Part shown: positions 28,926 through 40,741 of the stretch, piece after piece
How positions within the stretch are numbered: position 1 is the first letter of the stretch
Layout: every line of letters starts with the position of its first letter
Assembly (NCBI GenBank): GCA_947184155.2
Contig: CAMXCT020001727.1
Location: forward strand, 62,001-126,000
Source of the DNA: Cladocopium goreaui
Lineage: Eukaryota > Sar > Dinophyceae > Suessiales > Symbiodiniaceae
Direction of reading: 5' to 3'
DNA: 64,000 nucleotides
Notes under the pieces: model-generated
The model's database searches: none
What the model was told of the DNA's origin: nothing
The model's input: only the letters and a program-made list of their open reading frames with translations
Program-made: the position numbers and the translations under genes

Positions 28926-31900
28926 TCATTGGGTGGGATCAAGCAGCATCTCACGATTGAGCTGTAAATTATATAGGCCATCCTCAAGCGTGGATGCAAA
29001 CCATGGAAACCCCACCTGAATCCCAAATGGCAAGCCTGCGCTGGCGACCCATTTCTTGGAACCCTCACGAGTCGGAATCGAAGCTCTACGCGAAATTGCC
29101 ATGCAAATTGACCGATCACTACATGGTGCGCCACCCGCCACGGCACTGTCACACTGTCGCGACTCTGTACCGAAAGGGGTCGGGACACCAGGCCTATAGG
29201 GGGAGCGCTGAATTTGTGCGCTCACTGCGATGACCAAAGCATTAGATTATCATTGAGAAGCTGCATGGTGATGATGGAATCCTCAGATGCGGTGAGCCGT
29301 GGCAAATATGAAAAAGGATGGGGTGCACGTGCTTATATAATTTTCACTATCACCATATATATATATATATCTCTCTCTCTCTCTCTCTCTGTGCGTGTGT
29401 GTTATAAATATATTCGATATAGATATAATGATATGCTGTATACATACAATTGTATGGATTGATTGGGATGGGGTCATGGTGGAATTCAACCTGACTTGTG
29501 GTCACAACAGCCCATGCCGCTCGCCGTATGCTTGTGGGCCAAGCAGTGATTGGACCGGAAGTTGTTGGATCATCTTCAAAAACAAAAAAGGATCAATTTG
29601 ATCAAACAAGCCTCCAAAAAAGGAAGATTTGGTTGCCGACCGATCCAATATACACAATGCAATGCGCTCAATTTTAGGTTGCCATCTAGCAAATAAATAT
29701 CGCCATCTAGTACATCGAAAGTTGGCCATGCGGCGGGTCAAAGAAAAATGGACACCAACCAAACAGTACTTCCTGGGAAGCATTTTAATTATGGAAGAAA
29801 ATAAAAGGAAGTATGAGTTTTCTTCCAACCAAAATTACCAACCAACACCAACTATCATTTTATGATCATTTTGTTGTCCATTCAAAGAACAAACAAAAAG
29901 GCAAGTTTTGGAGAAGTTGCACCTAGTTTCTGGACAAACCACGAAAAAAATGTGTCCGGGCTCATTACCATCCCCAACCACCCAAAGCCACCTAAGCAAA
30001 TTGTGGAAATTCACAAACCTGACAATAAGCAGTTAGGGATGATGCCCGCTGCACAAAGCATGAATTTGCACGGATTTCTTCTATGAATCATCCCCAGTAC
30101 CCAAATTTAACATCATCTCGAAGGTAAATGTTAATTCCAAGGGCTGTTACTGTATGAATTGGGGATCGTGACTATTAGTGTGTTCACCAGTTACCAAATA
30201 TATTGTGTGGTTGGGAAACTATTAGTAGTACCTTGGCTCCCCATGAAAAAAGAAGGAAATATGGATACTCATATCTCCTTAGCTCCCCCCAAGCACAGGA
30301 TAGTAACAGCAATTCTGATTGGTGGTTTTGCCCTCAAAACAACCACTTGTCATTGGGGATCATACCATGCCTGTGGCTGACTGAAAATTGAAAGCAAATT
30401 GAAATTATTGTAGAACCAAAATGAATGTGTTACGGGAAAGCAACCCCAAAGTTCATCAAAACACTATATGACCATAATGGATAGAGTAAAATCATAAAAT
30501 ATTGCTCATCCATGCTAATCCCAAGTGTGGCTGTTGCTGGTCAACATCAAATTTTGGCGGTCTAGAATCCTCATTGTTGGTGGGAACATGACAGTCGATT
30601 CACTCCGAGCCAATCAACCGATGGGAACAGGACATCTGAGCAAGTGTTCGAAAGCTTCTGTCCCTATATACTACTTGGTTAATAAGGATGCCTATAATAA
30701 GGATTCCCAAATAATCCCCAAGATATTGGGCGAAGAAAAACACACAAACATCATCAACCAACAGGGGCGAAAAACCGCAGCCACTGCGAAGAGATGGGCA
30801 ATGGGATTGGCCAGTTAACGAACTCCATGGCCCACTGAAGTGTGTTTAAACGAAATAAGTATTAGTAAGTTGTAATATGGAGTAGATACTTAATCAGACT
30901 TGGCGGCCAACCAAAAACATATAATGAATATTTACACCATTGTATCCAATATCACTATTAAATCCCATGATATGAGTCACCAGCTTGAATCCCAATCAGT
31001 CACCATTTTTCTGACGCTTAAATCCTACGAAGTCACCATTTTTCATCACCATCAAAGCCCATTAAATCACCGTTTTTCTTGGTTTTCCATCTGGTTTTCC
31101 ATCCCATAAACATCATTGGGCCACAAACCTTGCCCTCGAAGCATCGTTGCGCGACTCCTCTGGGATATCCTCAATGCCCGCGCTGGCCGCGTTCAGTGCG
31201 TCCGTGGCCGTGGCCACTGCATGCTCGGTGTCCTGGAGGCAGCTGGAGGCAGCTGGAGGCCGGGCTGCGCCTCGCTTAAAATGGTGGTGAAATATGGAGA
31301 AAAACGTAGAAAAACTATCCAACATGATTGTTTTATCATCGAACATACAGGTTGAAACAAGAAAAATTATGAAAAATGGTGGTTGATGGAGTCTTGTGGC
31401 CAACAAAAGCGCACAATAGTGTGAAACAGCATGTTTAGGCAAAGCAAGTTACCTACTTATCATTTGGGATCATTTGGGGGTCCACCTTGCTATCAAACCT
31501 TGCAATTTTCGTCATGAAGTTCAAGCTGCCATGCAAGCCAATGGTTGAGATTCACCCTTATCGTGAGGACGTTGGTTCAATTCATAGGCCCGAAACAAAA
31601 AACTTGCTAATGGTGAGGTCACCATCATGGATCATTCTGGTTACCCTGATTTTTGCTGGTTGAATCCCCAATCTACAACACTCTGTAGCCATCTGTATAT
31701 ATATTTATATATATGTGTAGATGTATGTATGTGTATATGTATGGGAAAACATATAATATGTATATATACGTGTATATATATATAGGGTTGGTGGAATCCC
31801 CGGAACTGACCACCAGGATCCCTGGTGAAAGCGTGCACTGTCCTTCAACACCTCATGCAGGAAGACTGAGAAGTTGAGGGCCAAACCCAGTCGCACCTAG

Positions 31901-34900
31901 GATTGCACCAAGGCTTTGGGTTAATGACAAATTTCAATGAGCATCATTTAATGTTCTCTCAAGCTAATGGGTTAATATATCTCTATATATATATATATAG
32001 TACGCCTCAAGGTGACGCTGCCGTAACACTCAAATGGACTGAAATGTGTAGGGGCGCATTTATATAGGCGCACGCTGATGCATGAGGTGTCCTCAGCATG
32101 GTCACCGAACACAACAACACATTTCACATGAATCGCGATCAGTGAAACAGTAGAGCCGGCATGTCAAAAGCCAAAAAACTATAAATAAAACGGTGTGTGT
32201 ATGACATGTGTATGACATAAATTTAATCTGTATATATATATAAATAAATAATTGCATAGATAAATGTATAATGATATAAAATATGCATATAAACGGTGTG
32301 TATGTTTTTAACGTTTGTGTGTGTGTGTGGGAGGGGGTTGTGTATGGCAAGCACTGCCTCACTAGCCAGGTGACAGGATGCGCGGTGGGTAGCGACATTG
32401 CCTCACCCATGCCTGTGGCAGCAACATTTGCCAATGGATCAATGGATTGGAAGGAAAACTTACAGGAAAAGAATGAAAAACCAGGTTCTTCCAATCACAA
32501 TATCTAGTTGGTGGTTTCAACCCCCCTGAAAAAATATCAGTCAGTTTGGATCATCGTCCCAGCTATTGGGGAAAATAAAGCACGTTCCAAACCACCAACC
32601 AGATATACAGTAATTCAAGGGGTTTGCTGCTAATCTTCCCTGCAAACAAGACTCCTCATACAGCATGGCTGCAGGTCGTGGCTGCAGCTGACGAATCTAA
32701 TATCTATTCAGATACGTTTCAATCACACCCCCATATGCTCCATGTCTGGAATCGGAATACTTATCAGCAGTATGACCCCAAAACTCACCCAAATGTAGCC
32801 AAACAATGGTAAATATATCATACATGGAGCATCTATGAGCATCTGGGATCTGTTTTGAATTCTTTTGACCCCTGTTCCAAGCATGTCCAGCGCCTGACTT
32901 GTAGACTTCCATTGCCTGCGGCACCGTGCCGGCCGAGCAAAAACATGCTCAGGAATGGCTCAGTTTTTCCTGCAACTTAGGATGTGTTAAGATTGAACAT
33001 AAGGAGGATTCACCGACATGCTTTTATTTTTATTACCAAGGGATACCGTGGGCGTACTGAATTAACATTACAAAATATAGGGCCGGAGTACATTCCCATT
33101 GATATGACTTATGCAGCAAAGCACGAAATGACTTGTGTTTCAAGAAGTCTCTCTCAATAATGGACATATTAATCATGTCAAGAATCAAACTTCCCCCACC
33201 CAAATTGGATCGTCCGTCAATCAACATGGTAAATCGCCACAAACCGTCCCAGTAGCCTAACAGGGTCAGTCGTTTAATTATCCCAAATAAATTCAACGGG
33301 ATACCCTCTGGCAAATTAACATAGACCCTGGCAGATAGGGTTGGAAGATTAGTTTCCATTGAAACTAGGCTATTTTCAGGGTCTATGTTCATTTACCGGA
33401 GGGTATGTTATATACCCGAACAAAAAGTCCCAATTGGGGACATGGCAGCTCCACTCATGATACCAGGCATTTCTGGTTGGATCAATTCCGACGGCTTTCA
33501 CCCTACTTATATCCTTATATCATGGGTAATATCATATGGGCAATCATGAGTATATAATATCAATTAATATGATTAATATCATATTATGATGTTATATCCT
33601 TGTACAATCAAAGAAAATCGAGCTTTTCTGATGATATCCAGGGTTCAACGGTTCAACATGGTTCAACTCTGAACTCCGCCCCTGGAGCCACGCAAAAAAA
33701 AGGGCGCCTGCCCTGCAACTTCGCTCTTGGCGGGTCCTGTGGTCCATTCAGCCAGGTAACCTCAGCGGGGTGGGGCTTGACTACCCTCTATAGTAATTTT
33801 TTAAATGGCTACCCTCCAGTAAATTAACATCGACCCTGGCAGATAGGGGTTGGAAGATTAGTTTCCACTAAACATTGGCGATTTTCGGGGTCTATGTTAA
33901 TTTACCAGAAGGTATCTGGAACATCTATTTTTAACATAGGGGAATTGAAGCCACCAGCCACATAATTATAATAATTAGCATTAGTAAATCAAGAAATCCT
34001 ATGGAAAATGGATGAAGCTGGTCCATTGATGGATGATTGACAATTTTCAAAATGATGACTTTCCATAGCTATGTTACATTACCAAAGGATATCCAAACAT
34101 ATCCAAACTAATAATTATCTGGACTTCAGGAACGTCCAGAAAATGTTGTAACATGCTGAAACCAAACTGAAGGACATAACGGCAATCGACATGAAGTTCT
34201 TTAGAGGTGCACGGTTTGGTGGTTTCTCAGCTCCCAATTTGGGACGTTGATTTCTATAACATGATTTCTGCACTGTACCCGTTACAGTTGGTCCCAAGAT
34301 CAATGGCAAGGACTCAATAAGGCAATGGAACCCGGCAGTGGAAACTCCTCTGGTTAGAATCTGTTTGTCTATCTATCTATCTATCTATCTATATATATAT
34401 ATGTATACTTTATATTTACATATATATATACACATATATACAACTATACCGCATGACCATTGACGATTGGCACATGTTTTTCTTCTTAAACATGCGGGTT
34501 GCCCAAACCGATGTTTGAATGTCATCAGTGGCCACTAGCGGTGCCCAAGTATCTGCATACAGTAATACATATACGCATACAACAGCCAATAAGCACGTGT
34601 ATGACATATAAACACATATGTATGCATTAATATGCATTAATATGCATTAATATGATTAATATGCATTAATATGCATTAATATTTATTAATTAATATGCAC
34701 AAATAATATCCATATATATATGAACTAATATGCATTAATATCTATTTCTACAAACATATATATATATGTCATCAATAAATATATACGAATATATTTCTAT
34801 AAACATTAAAAAACATATAGTAGAAATATGGTAAAACATATACCTCCTATTGAACCTGCTCTTGTTTTACAATCAATAAAAAAAACAACATGCACCAGCA

Positions 34901-37900
34901 TCGTCCCCATCTCGGTCCAGGGGACGGTAATAGTCTCCTTGCATCTTCAAGAAGAAGGTCTTAGCTTCTCCAGGTTCTGCAGCACTCACCAAAGTGGACA
35001 GCCTTGGCAATGGATGGCGACTGACTTTGGTACTGTGAATGGACATGCTTTGTCTGTTGAGTTAAAGGAACAATGTAGGAACGAAATACACATGTGAGTT
35101 TGTTTACGGAGAAAAAACAGTGACTTTTTATGTACCATTTCCCTTCAACCCATTCATCATGCGATAAACCCTATGATTACTGATAGTGGCTAAATATCAC
35201 AGGAGAAAAGTATTGGCAAATTAGGTTTATACATCATTTTCAGAAAATGAAATTAGTTTCAATGGGGTTGTTTCTATATCAAAACAACGGGGATGGCTCT
35301 TTGCATGCCTGTCATACACACAAATCAGATATACTTAGATATGAAAAAAAACATGCCGCAATAAAGGACAACTCACAGATGAACAACACATGCCACAATA
35401 TGAGACAACTCACATATGAAAAAAAACTACAACATAAGACAACTATATATGAACAAACAGATACCACAATATAAGACAACTCACATATGAAACAACACAT
35501 GCCACAATATAGGACAACTCACATATGAAAAAAAAACATGCCACAATATCAGACAACTCAAATATGAAAAAAACACATGCCAAAATATCAGACAACTCAC
35601 ATATGAAAACAACACATGCCACAATATAAGACAACTCACATATGGAAAAACACATGCCACACTATAAGACAACTCACATATATAAAGGGGGACATGCCAC
35701 AATATGAGACAACGCACATATGAAAAAACACATGCCACAATTTAAGGCAACTCATACGAGAAAAAAACTCATGCCACAATACAAGACAACTGACATATGG
35801 AAAAAAAACATGCCACACTATAAGACAACTCACATATGAAAAACACATGCCACAATATCAAACAACTCACAAATGAAAAAACACATATGAAAAAAACAAA
35901 AAACATGCCACAATATAAGACAACTCACATATGAAACAACACATGTTGCAATCATGTTGCAATATAAGACAACTCACATATGAAAAAACAAACATGCCAC
36001 AATATCAGGCAACTCACATATGACAAAACACATGCCGCAAAAAAAGACAACTCACATACTGGTTTCGAAAAAAACACATGCCACAAAATAAGACAACTCA
36101 CATATGGAAAACACACATGCCACACTATAAGACAACTCACATATGAAAAACAAAAAACACATGGCACAATATAAGACAACTCACATATGAAAAAAAAACA
36201 TGCCACAATATCAGACAACTCACATATGACAAATCACATGCCAAAAAATCAAACAACTCACATATGAAAACCACACATGCCACACTATAAGACAACTCAC
36301 ATATGAAAAAACACATGCCACACTATAAGACAACTCACATATGAGAAAAAAAACATGGCACACTATAGGACAACTCACATATGAAAAAAAACATGCCACA
36401 AAATAAGACGACTCTCATAAGGAAAAAAAACAATATAAGACAACTCACATATGAAAAAACATGCCACAATTTAAGGCAACTCATTCAAGAAAAAAACGCA
36501 TGCCACAAAATAAGACAACTCACATATGAACAAAACACATGCCACAATATAAGACAACTCACATATGAAAACAACACATGCCACACTATAACACAACTCA
36601 CATATGAAAAACACATGCCACAATTGAAAAAATAAAACAACTCACATATGAAAAAACACATGTCACAATATAAAACAATTCACATATGAAAAAAACACAT
36701 GCCACGATATCAGACAACTCAGATATGAAAAAAAACATATGCCACAATTCAAAAAAACAACTCACATATGCAAAACCACATGCCACAATTGACAATATAA
36801 GACAACTCACATATGAAAAAAAATGCCACAATATAAAACAACTCAAATATTGAAAAATACATGCCACAATAAAAATATGAAAAAAAACATGCCACAATAT
36901 AAGACAACTTACATATAAAACAAAAAAAACACATGCCACAATATAAGACAACTCACATATGGAAAAAAAAACATGCCGCAAAATAAGAAAACTCACATGT
37001 GAAAAAAACACATGCCACAATATTGAAAAAAAAACGCATATGAAAAAAACGCAACAATAGGAGACAACTCACATATGAAAAAAAATACATGACACAATAT
37101 CAGACAACTGACATATCAAAAAACAAAAAAAACACACACACATGCCGCAATATAAGACAACTCACATACGGAAAAAAAATGCCGCAACATAAGACAACTC
37201 ACATATATATATATATATATATATATATGTAAAAGACATGCCACAAAAGCAGAAAACTCACATATATATGATAAAACACATGACACAATATAAAACAACC
37301 CACAAATGAAAAAGAACAACTACAACATAAAACAACTATATATGAACAAACAAATGCCACAATATAAGACAACTCACATAAGAGAAAGAAAACACATGCC
37401 ACAATATAAGACAACTCACATATGAAAAAAAACATGCCACAATATACGACGGCTCAAATTCAAAACACACATGCCACAATAGAAGACATCTCACATTAAA
37501 AAAAAACCTATGCCACACTGTCAGACAACTCACATTTAACAAAAAACAAAAACACATACCACACTAAAAGAATACTACTCACATATAAAAAAACACATGC
37601 CACAATATCAGACAACTCACATATGAAAAAAATCACATGCCACAATATAAGACAACTCACATGTGAAAAAACAACACATGCCACAATATAAGACAACTCA
37701 CATATGAAAAATCAAAACACATGCCACAACATAAGACAACTCACATATTGAAAAACACATGCCACGATATCAAACAACACAGATATGAAAAAAAAACCAA
37801 TACATATGCCACAATAAAAGACAACTCACATATCCAAAAAACATATGTTACAATATAAGACATCTGACATATGAAAAAACAACACATGCCACAATATCAG

Positions 37901-39042
37901 ACAACTCATATATATATATTATTGAAAAAATATGCCACAATATACGACTGCTCACATTCAAAAAAACACATGACAAAATATAAGACAACTCACATATGAA
38001 AAATCAAAACACATGCCACAATATAAGACAACTCAAATATTGAAAAACACATGCCACGATATCAAACAACACAGATATATATTTAAAAAAAAATGCCACA
38101 ACAAAAGACAACTCACTTATCCAAAAAACATCCAAAAAACACATGTCACAATATAAGACAGCTCACATATTAAAAAAAAACATGCCACAATATCAGACAA
38201 CTCATATATATATAATATTTATATACTACTAAAAAAAACATGCCACACTATAAAACAACTCACAAAAAAAAACAAAACACATGTCACAATATAAGACAAC
38301 TCACATATGAAAAAAAACATGCGACAATATAAGGTTGCCATTTGGAGGTCACCGGAAAACTAAAACATCTCCCGGAGCATCCTTGAGATCCGCACAGGGT
38401 CAGGGCATTGGAGCAAATCTCCTGAAGTTCCGCCTGGCAACGGCCATCCCAATCAGACTCAAAGAATTTACCCTGTGGCAAACTAATACAATAAATCACC
38501 ACGATTCATAGGTAAATCAACTATAAATGATTATGGACCATGTTCAATAGCTATGTTAAATTACCAGAGGGTAAATAAACATGATTGAGGACCCCTTTTT
38601 TGTTCATTTTTTTCAGTCCCATCGACTCCTAAAGTCCCATCGACGCCTCCATCTTGGATCGATAACCTCCGGCCAACGAGGCATATGCTTCCTTAGCCGG
38701 CCCTTTTTTGCACCATGCTTGTGCCATGATGTTAGACTTGCACCATGCTTGAGCTCTGGTGTCATTCTCGTCCAGTATAACAACAACATCTTTAATTCCA
38801 GTATCCAGTTGCTGGGATTCATTCTAACCAACCAGGAGGCAGAAGGGACGACTCAGGGTTCAAACATGTTCAAACTCAAAGTCACCTGACAGGGTTTTCT
38901 CCCCGTTCCGATATCGTACAGCAAAACCCCACTACTGACCATCGCTTCCACTAGGAAACTTTCGTGATATCCGCACATTTCGCACAATCTGTTGCTGCGC
39001 GTTGCCCTGGTTTGAATGCAACAACACCATGCATGATTTACT

Positions 39043-39073
<31 letters not shown>

Positions 39074-40678
39074 TGGTGGCTTGTGGTTTTCAATAGCATG
39101 TGAGTCACTACCAAAGGGTAAAGCGTACCACTAAGGGGGTTCACCACACACTTAGACGGTCCATGGAATTAACTAACTAGTTGTTGAGTGGATTATTGAC
39201 CCACTATATCCCAATTTTCAAATCCATCTACTTAACCCAAACTTCCAGAGAGCTCACAGCATCTCCAGCCCACTGGCATCGAACTGAAAGCCACGCGTCT
39301 CGTCCCTCGGAGAGCTCCATCTGTTCCACGCCGGCCGCCACACGCACGGCGTGACGCCGCTCTGTCAAGGAGTTCTTGAAGGCGGCGGAGAACATGTCGC
39401 GCTCCTGTCACGGCGTGGCGCGGCTAGGGTTGAAACCAAAGTCATGGAGAATTCACGGATAACTATTGGAGAATTGATGGGATAGTGGTTCACCACAATC
39501 AGCGCCATGAAATCTGAAGAGAAATTGAGCATGTAACAAAATTTAATGCATTCATTTTAGATCTGAAACCTGAATATGTAAAATCGGCATGATTCAATTT
39601 GAATAATAATTTCACCTTCTCAAAGCCTGAATGAATACCAAGAAATATAAATTGCTTACTGCTTACCCGATCATTGCAATTCTACCTGTGATGTGATGAT
39701 GTTGTTTTTTTTTTCAGGGTCTGGTCTTGGCTGTTCTAGCTTGTGATAAATCATCAAAACTGAATCAAAACCAAAACCAATATCCAGTATGAGTCAGTAT
39801 GAGCGACCATTTTCACAAAAAAACAATCTGATCTGCTCAGTCATCTTAATTCCTGACCGCCGTCCTCTGGATTCAGCGCAGAACCTACCTGAACCTTGGT
39901 TGCCATGGGAGTTTCGGACTTGCTGGTAATGCCACGCCATCCCACATACTTGCCATTCCATGCCAGACTTGCCAGAAACAATGCATGACAATGCATGCAC
40001 AACTAATAATGGGTGAACCCACGTGAAAACCATCCACAACCAATGTCACCAGAAATGGGCGGTAAACATCATCCCCTATCATTGGGTTTATACCATCACC
40101 ATGGACAGAAAACGCAACATGAAGCGATTGACACCGCAAGCCGTGATTGCTGTCAAAACAAATAACAATCGAGTGCTTAGCAATATGATAGGAAAATTGC
40201 CTCCGCACAGAGCCAAAACTGCGGCCAGTATGGAGTCTATATGGAAGGCAAACAAACGACCAATGGCAGGAGAATGCCTGCCTTTCAGTCTAGCTAGCCC
40301 CGATGGAATCGCCTGATCCAGAAGTCTCCAACATCTCAATGATCATCACCCCACCGTTTCAAAAAACACATCTCAATTGCAGCAGATTCACTCAAAAATG
40401 GTATCCCCATGTATCCCCATATGTTTGGCATGTTCTATAGCAACCCCCAAATAGATAGAACAGTTGGAACATGTTGGAAAACCTGGACATCATGGTGGAA
40501 AAATCATATACAACATCCTGGATCTAGGCTTTTCTATCATTTTTGTCCACCTGGATCGAGGCTTTTCCTCAATTCCACCTGGCCCAGCCACGCGTTGCTT
40601 CATGAAATCCGCCATCTCATCGTAGCGTTCGGCGCGCTCCGCCACACGCGCTAAGGTCACCAAGACCGTCTCATCCAT
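28926..40678 (-). CDS. 14-3-3 protein, 12-exon gene, divergent C-terminal helix
   Basis: Minus-strand exons: 40678-40589, 39888-39865, 39404-39305, 39006-38960 (tentative), 38457-38382, 34976-34926, 33760-33708, 32915-32888, 32412-32375, 31896-31843, 31232-31146 and 28982-28926 (stop TGA). Phases match at every junction, giving about 234 residues, near the usual 245. The protein starts MDETVLVTLARVAERAERYD and continues ERDMFSAAFKNSLTERR, FFLKMQGDYYRYLAEW, MSLPTAHP/VRLGLALNFSVFLHEVLK and DALNAASAGIEDIPEESRN, colinear with 14-3-3 helices. Groove residues are kept: Lys of AFKN, the ERR arginine, Lys of FLKM, Arg-Tyr of YYRY and Asn of ALNF. 14-3-3 dimers bind phosphoserine/threonine motifs in client proteins, mainly in the cytosol. 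Donors: GC 2, GA 6, GT 3. The last exon (LYNLQLNREMLLDPTQ) aligns without gaps to helix 9 but lacks its conserved Asn and Trp and the usual acidic tail. The exon at 39006 lengthens a loop and is the weakest call. Confidence 0.92.
28983..31145. other. Last intron of the 14-3-3 gene
   Basis: About 2.2 kb between the GA donor at 31,145 and the acceptor at 28,983. Includes a TA/CT microsatellite (29,357-29,400). A GC-rich stretch at 29,040-29,230 is open on both strands and is unexplained; it could be an alternative exon. Confidence 0.5.
33302..33405. mobile_element. MITE, CCCTCTGG family, GACCCTG subtype
   Basis: Ends taccctctggcaaattaac and catttaccggagggta. The interior shares catagaccctggcagatag and gattagtttcca with the copy at 33,810, so the two are one subfamily. 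It sits in a 14-3-3 intron. Confidence 0.8.
33810..33914. mobile_element. MITE, CCCTCTGG family, GACCCTG subtype, second copy
   Basis: Ends taccctccagtaaattaac and aatttaccagaaggta. It lies only 50 bp upstream of the 14-3-3 exon starting at 33,760. A third terminus-like sequence (taccctctatagtaattt) precedes it at 33,782. Confidence 0.8.
35340..38335. repeat. 3-kb minisatellite, unit about 38-40 bp, in a 14-3-3 intron
   Basis: Roughly 75-80 degenerate copies of a unit like acatgccacaatataagac plus aactcacatatgaaaaaa. Variation is mostly in the A-run length and in a few substitutions; at 37,199-37,228 a TA microsatellite has expanded inside a unit. The array fills almost all of the intron between the exons ending at 38,382 and starting at 34,976. 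Open frames across it are by-products of the repeat. Confidence 0.95.
38469..38573. mobile_element. MITE, CCCTCTGG family, next to a 14-3-3 splice acceptor
   Basis: Ends taccctgtggcaaac and aaattaccagagggta. The element stops 12 bp before the exon that starts at 38,457, so its terminus lies in the region where a branch point or pyrimidine tract would be expected. Confidence 0.8.
39170..39300. repeat. Dispersed repeat, copy near 14-3-3 exon 3
   Basis: Contains gtggattattgacccactat, aaatccatctacttaaccca and agagagctcacagcat. It resembles the copy at 27,165-27,275. It ends right at the 14-3-3 exon ending at 39,305, so the donor-side intron sequence belongs to this repeat. Confidence 0.6.
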
Positions 40679-40730: not shown

Positions 40731-40741
40731 CTGAGCCAAAA
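40731..40741 (-). promoter_or_regulatory. Spliced-leader-like motif / possible trans-splice acceptor of the 14-3-3 gene
   Basis: The minus strand reads TTTTGGCTCAG, which differs from the spliced-leader 3' end TTTTGGCTCAAG by one missing A. It lies 52 bases before the 14-3-3 ATG. Its terminal AG could serve as the trans-splice acceptor, giving a 52-nt 5' UTR. Confidence 0.4.

Follow-up and report, generated by a model that had tools for sequence, protein, structure and literature searches.

The window analysed here, 64,000 nucleotides of the dinoflagellate Cladocopium goreaui (GenBank assembly GCA_947184155.2, contig CAMXCT020001727.1, positions 62,001 to 126,000), carries on its minus strand, from position 40678 to 29222, a 14-3-3 gene divided into 12 short exons of 87, 30, 105, 45, 38, 77, 53, 22, 38, 54, 87 and 60 bp (the last including the stop codon). 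The exons join in phase to encode 231 amino acids, with no stop codon or frameshift across the 231 codons, and the predicted protein matches the Pfam profile PF00244 from end to end (profile positions 1-223 of 223, E 2.8e-69, 233.5 bits against a cut-off of 33.2) and the 14-3-3 zeta chains in the PDB (e.g. 7q16 and 1a37) with E 4e-55. The residues of the phosphopeptide groove (K49, R56, R127, Y128, N173, E180, N224 and W228 in zeta numbering) are identical in an alignment of this protein with 14-3-3 zeta, read by eye. The locus is a real full-length 14-3-3 gene, as a sequence-only reading of this DNA had proposed together with its 12 in-phase micro-exons, and it is probably a working, expressed one, judging by its sequence. 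It has the full-length domain and the groove residues in common with other eukaryotic 14-3-3 proteins and differs from them in its diverged sequence and in a very short tail past the last helix; its function is a predicted one. The frame is closed by a TGA at 29224-29222 that follows ...LMLWSSQ, past the last helix, and the end at 28926 that the sequence-only reading had given the gene would need a further exon, which nothing requires; the exons span 22-105 bp rather than 24-100 bp. A genome-wide Pfam search for 14-3-3 domains returned 33 rows, from which the window gene is absent because its exons are too short for that search.

The gene model was built with a custom splice-aware protein-to-DNA aligner, which can treat donors alike, on the minus strand of 28.6-41.2 kb, with the closest paralog of the same genome (contig C1739) as the query; the first models, guided by a distant paralog (C6044), contained spurious mini-exons and were replaced. 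The alignment scored 534 without any splice preference and 558, with 12 exons, when GT, GC and GA were equally preferred; the preference-free model differs from the latter in the position of several junctions and of two middle exons, and the gene structure given here is that of the G[TCA]-AG model. Twenty shuffled queries, and alignments to nine further strands or segments of the window, served as 29 controls, none of which scored above 196. A preference for GT only (8 points over every other donor) lowered the best score from 558 to 515 and retained GA or GC at introns 2, 3, 4, 10 and 11, so that protein conservation demands those non-GT donors. The GT-favouring and GT/GC-favouring models were rejected on account of their lower scores.

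All 11 introns end in AG, in agreement with the sequence-only reading, and in all 11 the AG is followed by G. The donors are GA in four introns (2, 3, 10 and 11), GC in three (4, 7 and 8) and GT in four (1, 5, 6 and 9). Non-GT donors thus occupy 7 of the 11 introns, which bears out the description of the donors as mostly GA or GC, and GA ties with GT; the earlier count of six GA, two GC and three GT, with GA-AG outnumbering GT-AG, did not survive the paralog-guided model. These numbers were set against the introns of other genes in this genome (6202 contigs, 1.17 Gb in total, as searched; GC content 44.2% over the window and the fetched loci longer than 5 kb), namely PP2A-type phosphatases, RAN, CK2 alpha and further 14-3-3 genes. 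Four of 13 gene models were left out (the two C6044 loci, the first C3791 copy and C1814); the flank filter retained 83 of 106 introns in a first set and 32 of 43 in a second, and seven C1739 introns added unfiltered brought the sample to 122. Of these, 110 are G[TCA]-AG introns and 97 of the 110 continue with G, as found by an aligner that favours G[TCGA] donors and AG acceptors and scores GT, GC and GA alike; the 12 remaining introns and the 13 lacking the following G were set aside. The 97 introns kept have GC in 44 cases, GT in 28 and GA in 25. In the eIF4A-like gene on contig C2136, fetched afterwards, all 13 introns are G[TCA]-AG followed by G.

The donor mix of the window gene is ordinary for this genome. 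GA donors, whose proportion had been considered notable, are found in 4 of 11 introns here and in 25 of 97 in the other genes (Fisher p = 0.48), and at least seven non-GT donors among 11 have a probability of 0.63-0.81, depending on whether the rate published for Cladocopium or that of the genome sample is used. The earlier count of six GA donors among 11 would be mildly unusual (0.011-0.040), but it was not reproduced. According to PMC9412976, C. goreaui has a genome of 1.2 Gb with 44.38% GC, 17.2 exons per gene, donors of 36.6% GT, 43.6% GC and 19.8% GA, and AGG at 96.1%. GC-AG or GA-AG introns make up 25-74% in Symbiodiniaceae (PMC7789003, section 5; similarly PMC11453091), and a review describes GC, GA and GT donors as all in use and AG as frequently followed by G (PMC4083563). 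The GT/GC/GA-AG mix agrees with these values, as does its earlier designation as dinoflagellate-type. The median exon length of 53.5 bp in the window gene compares with 48.5 bp in a set of 72 internal exons, taken from five models chosen for intron richness, and with 51, 53 and 81 bp in three Symbiodiniaceae (PMC7789003, Table 1). The gene shares with B. minutum, S. microadriaticum and C. goreaui at large the donor mix, the AG followed by G, the exons of about 50 bp and the richness in introns, and departs from them in no feature tested.

The background introns fall into two classes, according to whether the exon ends in AG before the intron. In the 41 introns with the exonic AG the donors are GC, GA and GT in 26, 8 and 7 cases, and position +5 is G in 51%. 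In the 56 introns without it position +2 is nearly even (C 18, A 17, T 21; chi-square p 0.008 for the difference between the classes), and positions +5 to +10 read C, T, T, G, G and C in 70, 66, 52, 66, 55 and 55 percent, respectively, giving the pattern G[T/C/A]NN-CTTGG(C). The motif CTTGG with at most one mismatch stands exactly at +5 in 28 of the 56 introns without the exonic AG and in 1 of the 41 with it (Fisher 8e-8), while at 14 other offsets it is found in 0-3 of the 56; the exact motif at +5 occurs in 14 of 56 and 0 of 41. The window introns show the same division, with CTTGG at one mismatch at +5 in five of the six without the exonic AG and in none of the five with it. In the eIF4A-like gene the figures over all 13 introns are 3/6 and 0/7 for CTTGG with at most one mismatch, and 6/6 and 1/7 for C at +5; over the ten introns that pass the flank filter CTTGG is found in 2/4 and 0/6. 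A literature search that did not cover Roy et al. 2023, reportedly the main paper on dinoflagellate introners, returned nothing linking Symbiodiniaceae introns with cttggc, so that the motif is at best a candidate for a new one.

The second donor base is related to the coding sequence downstream. In 10 of the 11 window introns position +2 of the intron equals position +2 of the next exon (3.6 expected; 0 of 1000 shuffles), with matches at +3 and +4 (three and two) not above expectation. Among the 56 background introns without the exonic AG the match at +2 is found in 33 (18.8 expected; 0 of 1000 shuffles), at +3 in 20 (14.2; p 0.066) and at +4 in 21 (14.2; p 0.033), and at +5 the excess is over (4 matches, 10.0 expected). 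The class with the exonic AG has an excess at +2 only (20 of 41, 12.5 expected, p 0.006). For the 33 introns that bear the motif, the five of the window included, the matches number 24 at +2 (12.1 expected), 14 at +3 (8.0; p 0.018) and 12 at +4 (8.5; p 0.12). An excess that extends from +2 to +4 and is gone at +5 is what a target-site duplication of fixed length predicts, as a statistical property of the class without the exonic AG and not of each intron. On the sequence evidence, the simplest reading is plausibly that of a 4-bp duplication, the first two bases of which become the donor.

We propose, with a probability of roughly three in four, that this is an ordinary 14-3-3 gene, probably expressed, with spliceosomal GT/GC/GA-AG introns whose non-GT donors are mostly a by-product of intron insertion. 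According to this scenario, the spliceosome of this group would accept a GT, GC or GA donor and an AG|G acceptor, and an element inserting with a 4-bp target-site duplication (GNNN) would leave two copies of the target, one opening the new intron and supplying the donor by its GN, and one opening the next exon. The coding sequence of the target site would therefore determine the second donor base. Two kinds of donors may result, one following an exonic AG, and one without it, of which half would still have a block resembling CTTGG(C) at +5. A precedent is provided by the introners of S. microadriaticum, for which Gozashti et al. 2022 (PMC9860276) describe 4-bp duplications, terminal inverted repeats, their own 3' site and a 5' site co-opted from the duplication. 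The 4-bp duplication and the donor drawn from it would be common to both genomes, and an insertion origin of the odd donors is plausible; the window genome differs in that no near-identical copies were found among those tested and that the inverted repeat is only partly supported.

Several points weigh against this explanation. The junctions are predicted from protein conservation together with the G[TCA]-AG rule, and direct repeats allow 10 of the 11 to slide by at least 2 nt. Exact CTTGG occurs in none of the window introns, and of the 10 well-aligned introns of the eIF4A-like gene 6 match at +2, among them only 2 of the 4 that lack the exonic AG. The whole-intron search for relatives covered introns 1 and 2 of the window, introns 3-5 lying outside it and the candidates for introns 6-11 being swamped by a high-copy repeat; for introns 1 and 2 all 33 candidates were scored, and they match over short internal repeats without a full-length relative among them, and the PP2A-gene introns have none among 40 of 45 candidates scored, only short internal matches. 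The many similar copies in different genes by which introners are recognised are thus missing for these introns, and the elements, if any, would be old and degenerate. An acceptor of the form YYRRG, the reverse of CTTGG, is found in 23 of the 56 introns without the exonic AG and in 2 of the 41 with it. Within the former class, however, it is not correlated with the donor motif (13/28 and 10/28, p 0.59), which weakens the inverted-repeat reading. Perfect inverted repeats at the ends of the window introns reach only 4-6 nt, a length for which no control was run.

It is tempting to go further and to consider the relaxed GN donor as a lasting transposon footprint to which the spliceosome has adapted. 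More than half of the introns (56 of the 97 sampled) use a donor without the exonic AG, which would be little constrained beyond the G at +1 and CTTGG(C) at +5 to +10, with +2 copied from the target exon, and two 5' splice-site codes would then coexist in one genome. We put this forward tentatively, and would sooner wager against it than for it.

The most serious competitor of the insertion origin, though still an unlikely one, is that CTTGG(C) at +5 is a true splicing signal, i.e. a second 5' splice-site code, employed where the exonic AG and the G at +5 are absent and read by a spliceosomal RNA or protein. The fixed distance of the motif from the junction, its presence in half of the sampled introns without the exonic AG and almost never with it, and the class-dependent choice of donor would all suit such a signal. 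However, the other half of that class has no CTTGG motif, and U1 and U6, the small nuclear RNAs that the search covered (U2, U4 and U5 lay outside it), offer it no obvious reader: the 5' end of U1 (AAACTTACCTG) and U6 (ATACAGAGA) are usual in form, the ACAGAGA box included, and nothing in either RNA is convincingly complementary to CTTGGC, with the closest candidates relying on G-U pairs or lying inside the molecules. The mean U1 pairing energy of the class without the exonic AG is no better than that of shuffled sequences (-6.6 and -6.5 kcal/mol), and an insertion footprint accounts jointly for the motif, its spacing and the match at +2. The U1 and U6 genes themselves are interleaved in repeated arrays on contigs C5084 and C4692.

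We regard it as quite improbable that many GA donors are misplaced, with short repeats misleading the alignment and the true junctions at nearby GT or other sites. Direct repeats of 2-6 nt do permit sliding at 10 introns, the eleventh can slide by 1 nt, and the sequence-only and present models disagree on the donor tally; on the other hand, the GT-favouring model costs 43 points and retains the GA and GC donors at the five introns named above, and transcript-guided gene sets for the family contain donors of both kinds as a matter of course (PMC9412976, PMC4083563).

If the insertion origin is correct, the odd donor bases are target-site copies, and the fixed CTTGG(C) block may mark insertions. 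The gene, ordinary in itself, then becomes a small and clear case of a testable idea about the dinoflagellate exceptions to the GT-AG rule. In genomes of the Symbiodiniaceae type, GA and GC counts in a single gene carry little surprise.

A near-identical copy of the gene (C841:51803-64013) agrees with it in the bases of every one of the 11 donors and 11 acceptors, with one synonymous change in 695 exon bases and 38 changes in 7647 intron bases; a third copy (C1105:1-4090), truncated where its contig stops, agrees likewise at the junctions of introns 1-4 and at the intron 5 donor. That the window locus is a decaying pseudogene, its junctions out of use, could be suspected from these two further copies and from the divergence of its protein (38-59% identity to six paralogs), but is the least probable alternative in view of the open frame, the full Pfam coverage, the retained groove residues and, weakly given how few the intron changes are, the single synonymous exon change. 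Intron turnover, a point in favour of the insertion origin, shows in the comparison with the paralogs: the closest, C1739 (59% identity, eight exons in the modelled part), has none of the 11 window intron positions, and over all six paralogs one position is shared exactly (that of window intron 6, found in C1868), while C1739 and C6027 each have two introns no more than one codon away from an intron of the window gene. Other 14-3-3 contigs look paired as well (C245/C6083, C435/C1814, C1739/C6103, the two members of the last pair having the same exon lengths and protein), which suggests haplotypes or recent duplication. Contig C3791 carries four tandem 14-3-3 copies (83200-93274); in the alignments the fourth exon is shorter in the first of them than in the last. 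Upstream of the ATG there is a 10-nt match to the dinoflagellate spliced leader (DinoSL; Table 1), a length that 16 out of 3000 random stretches of 250 bp from the fetched DNA (136 of them masked) also reach; it hints that the gene may have passed through a processed cDNA before it gained its introns.

Table 1. Features of the 14-3-3 locus, in positions of the window. Exons rest on the spliced alignment and translation, the stop codon on the sequence; the donor and any direct repeat are those of the intron preceding the exon.
Feature	Position	Strand	Details
Possible spliced-leader relic, TTTTGGCTCA	40732..40741	-	Identical to 10 nt of DinoSL; 53 nt upstream of ATG
Exon 1	40592..40678	-	ATG at 40678 (MDETVLVTLARVAERAERYDEMADFMKQR)
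Exon 2	39865..39894	-	Intron 1 GT-AG, donor GTGG-CTGGG
Exon 3 (ERDMFSAAFKN..)	39300..39404	-	Intron 2 GA-AG, exonic AG, direct repeat AGGA
Exon 4	38647..38691	-	Intron 3 GA-AG, donor GACG-CGTGG
Exon 5	38396..38433	-	Intron 4 GC-AG, direct repeat AGGCG
Minisatellite in intron 5	35339..38333		Unit about 39 bp, about 77 copies
Exon 6 (AEPGEAKTFFLKMQGDYY)	34926..35002	-	Intron 5 GT-AG, 3393 bp
Exon 7 (RYLAEWTTG..)	33708..33760	-	Intron 6 GT-AG, donor GTCC-CCTGG; position common to paralog C1868
High-copy self-complementary repeat in intron 6, about 105 bp	33302..33406		Second copy at about 33810-33915, same intron
Exon 8 (22 bp)	32894..32915	-	Intron 7 GC-AG, direct repeat GCAGGC
Exon 9	32375..32412	-	Intron 8 GC-AG, direct repeat CAGGC
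Exon 10 (VRLGLALNFSVFLHEVLK)	31843..31896	-	Intron 9 GT-AG, donor GTCA-CCTGG
Exon 11	31146..31232	-	Intron 10 GA-AG, direct repeat AGGACA
Exon 12, to stop TGA (SIITMQLLNDNLMLWSSQ*)	29222..29281	-	Intron 11 GA-AG, donor GATG-CTTCG, direct repeat GAT

An Rfam scan of the window gave no match at the gathering threshold; five of the 6 long open reading frames scanned against Pfam, out of 25, had no match, and the weak, scattered matches of the sixth, a repetitive one, were taken for chance. Intron 5 owes its length to the 3-kb minisatellite that occupies most of it. The self-complementary repeat of intron 6 has 6145 candidate places in the genome, 40 of which were scored, and its sequence resembles that of a miniature inverted-repeat transposable element. 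Intron 1 contains at 40436-40543 an interspersed repeat with 29 further matches at 71-97% identity.

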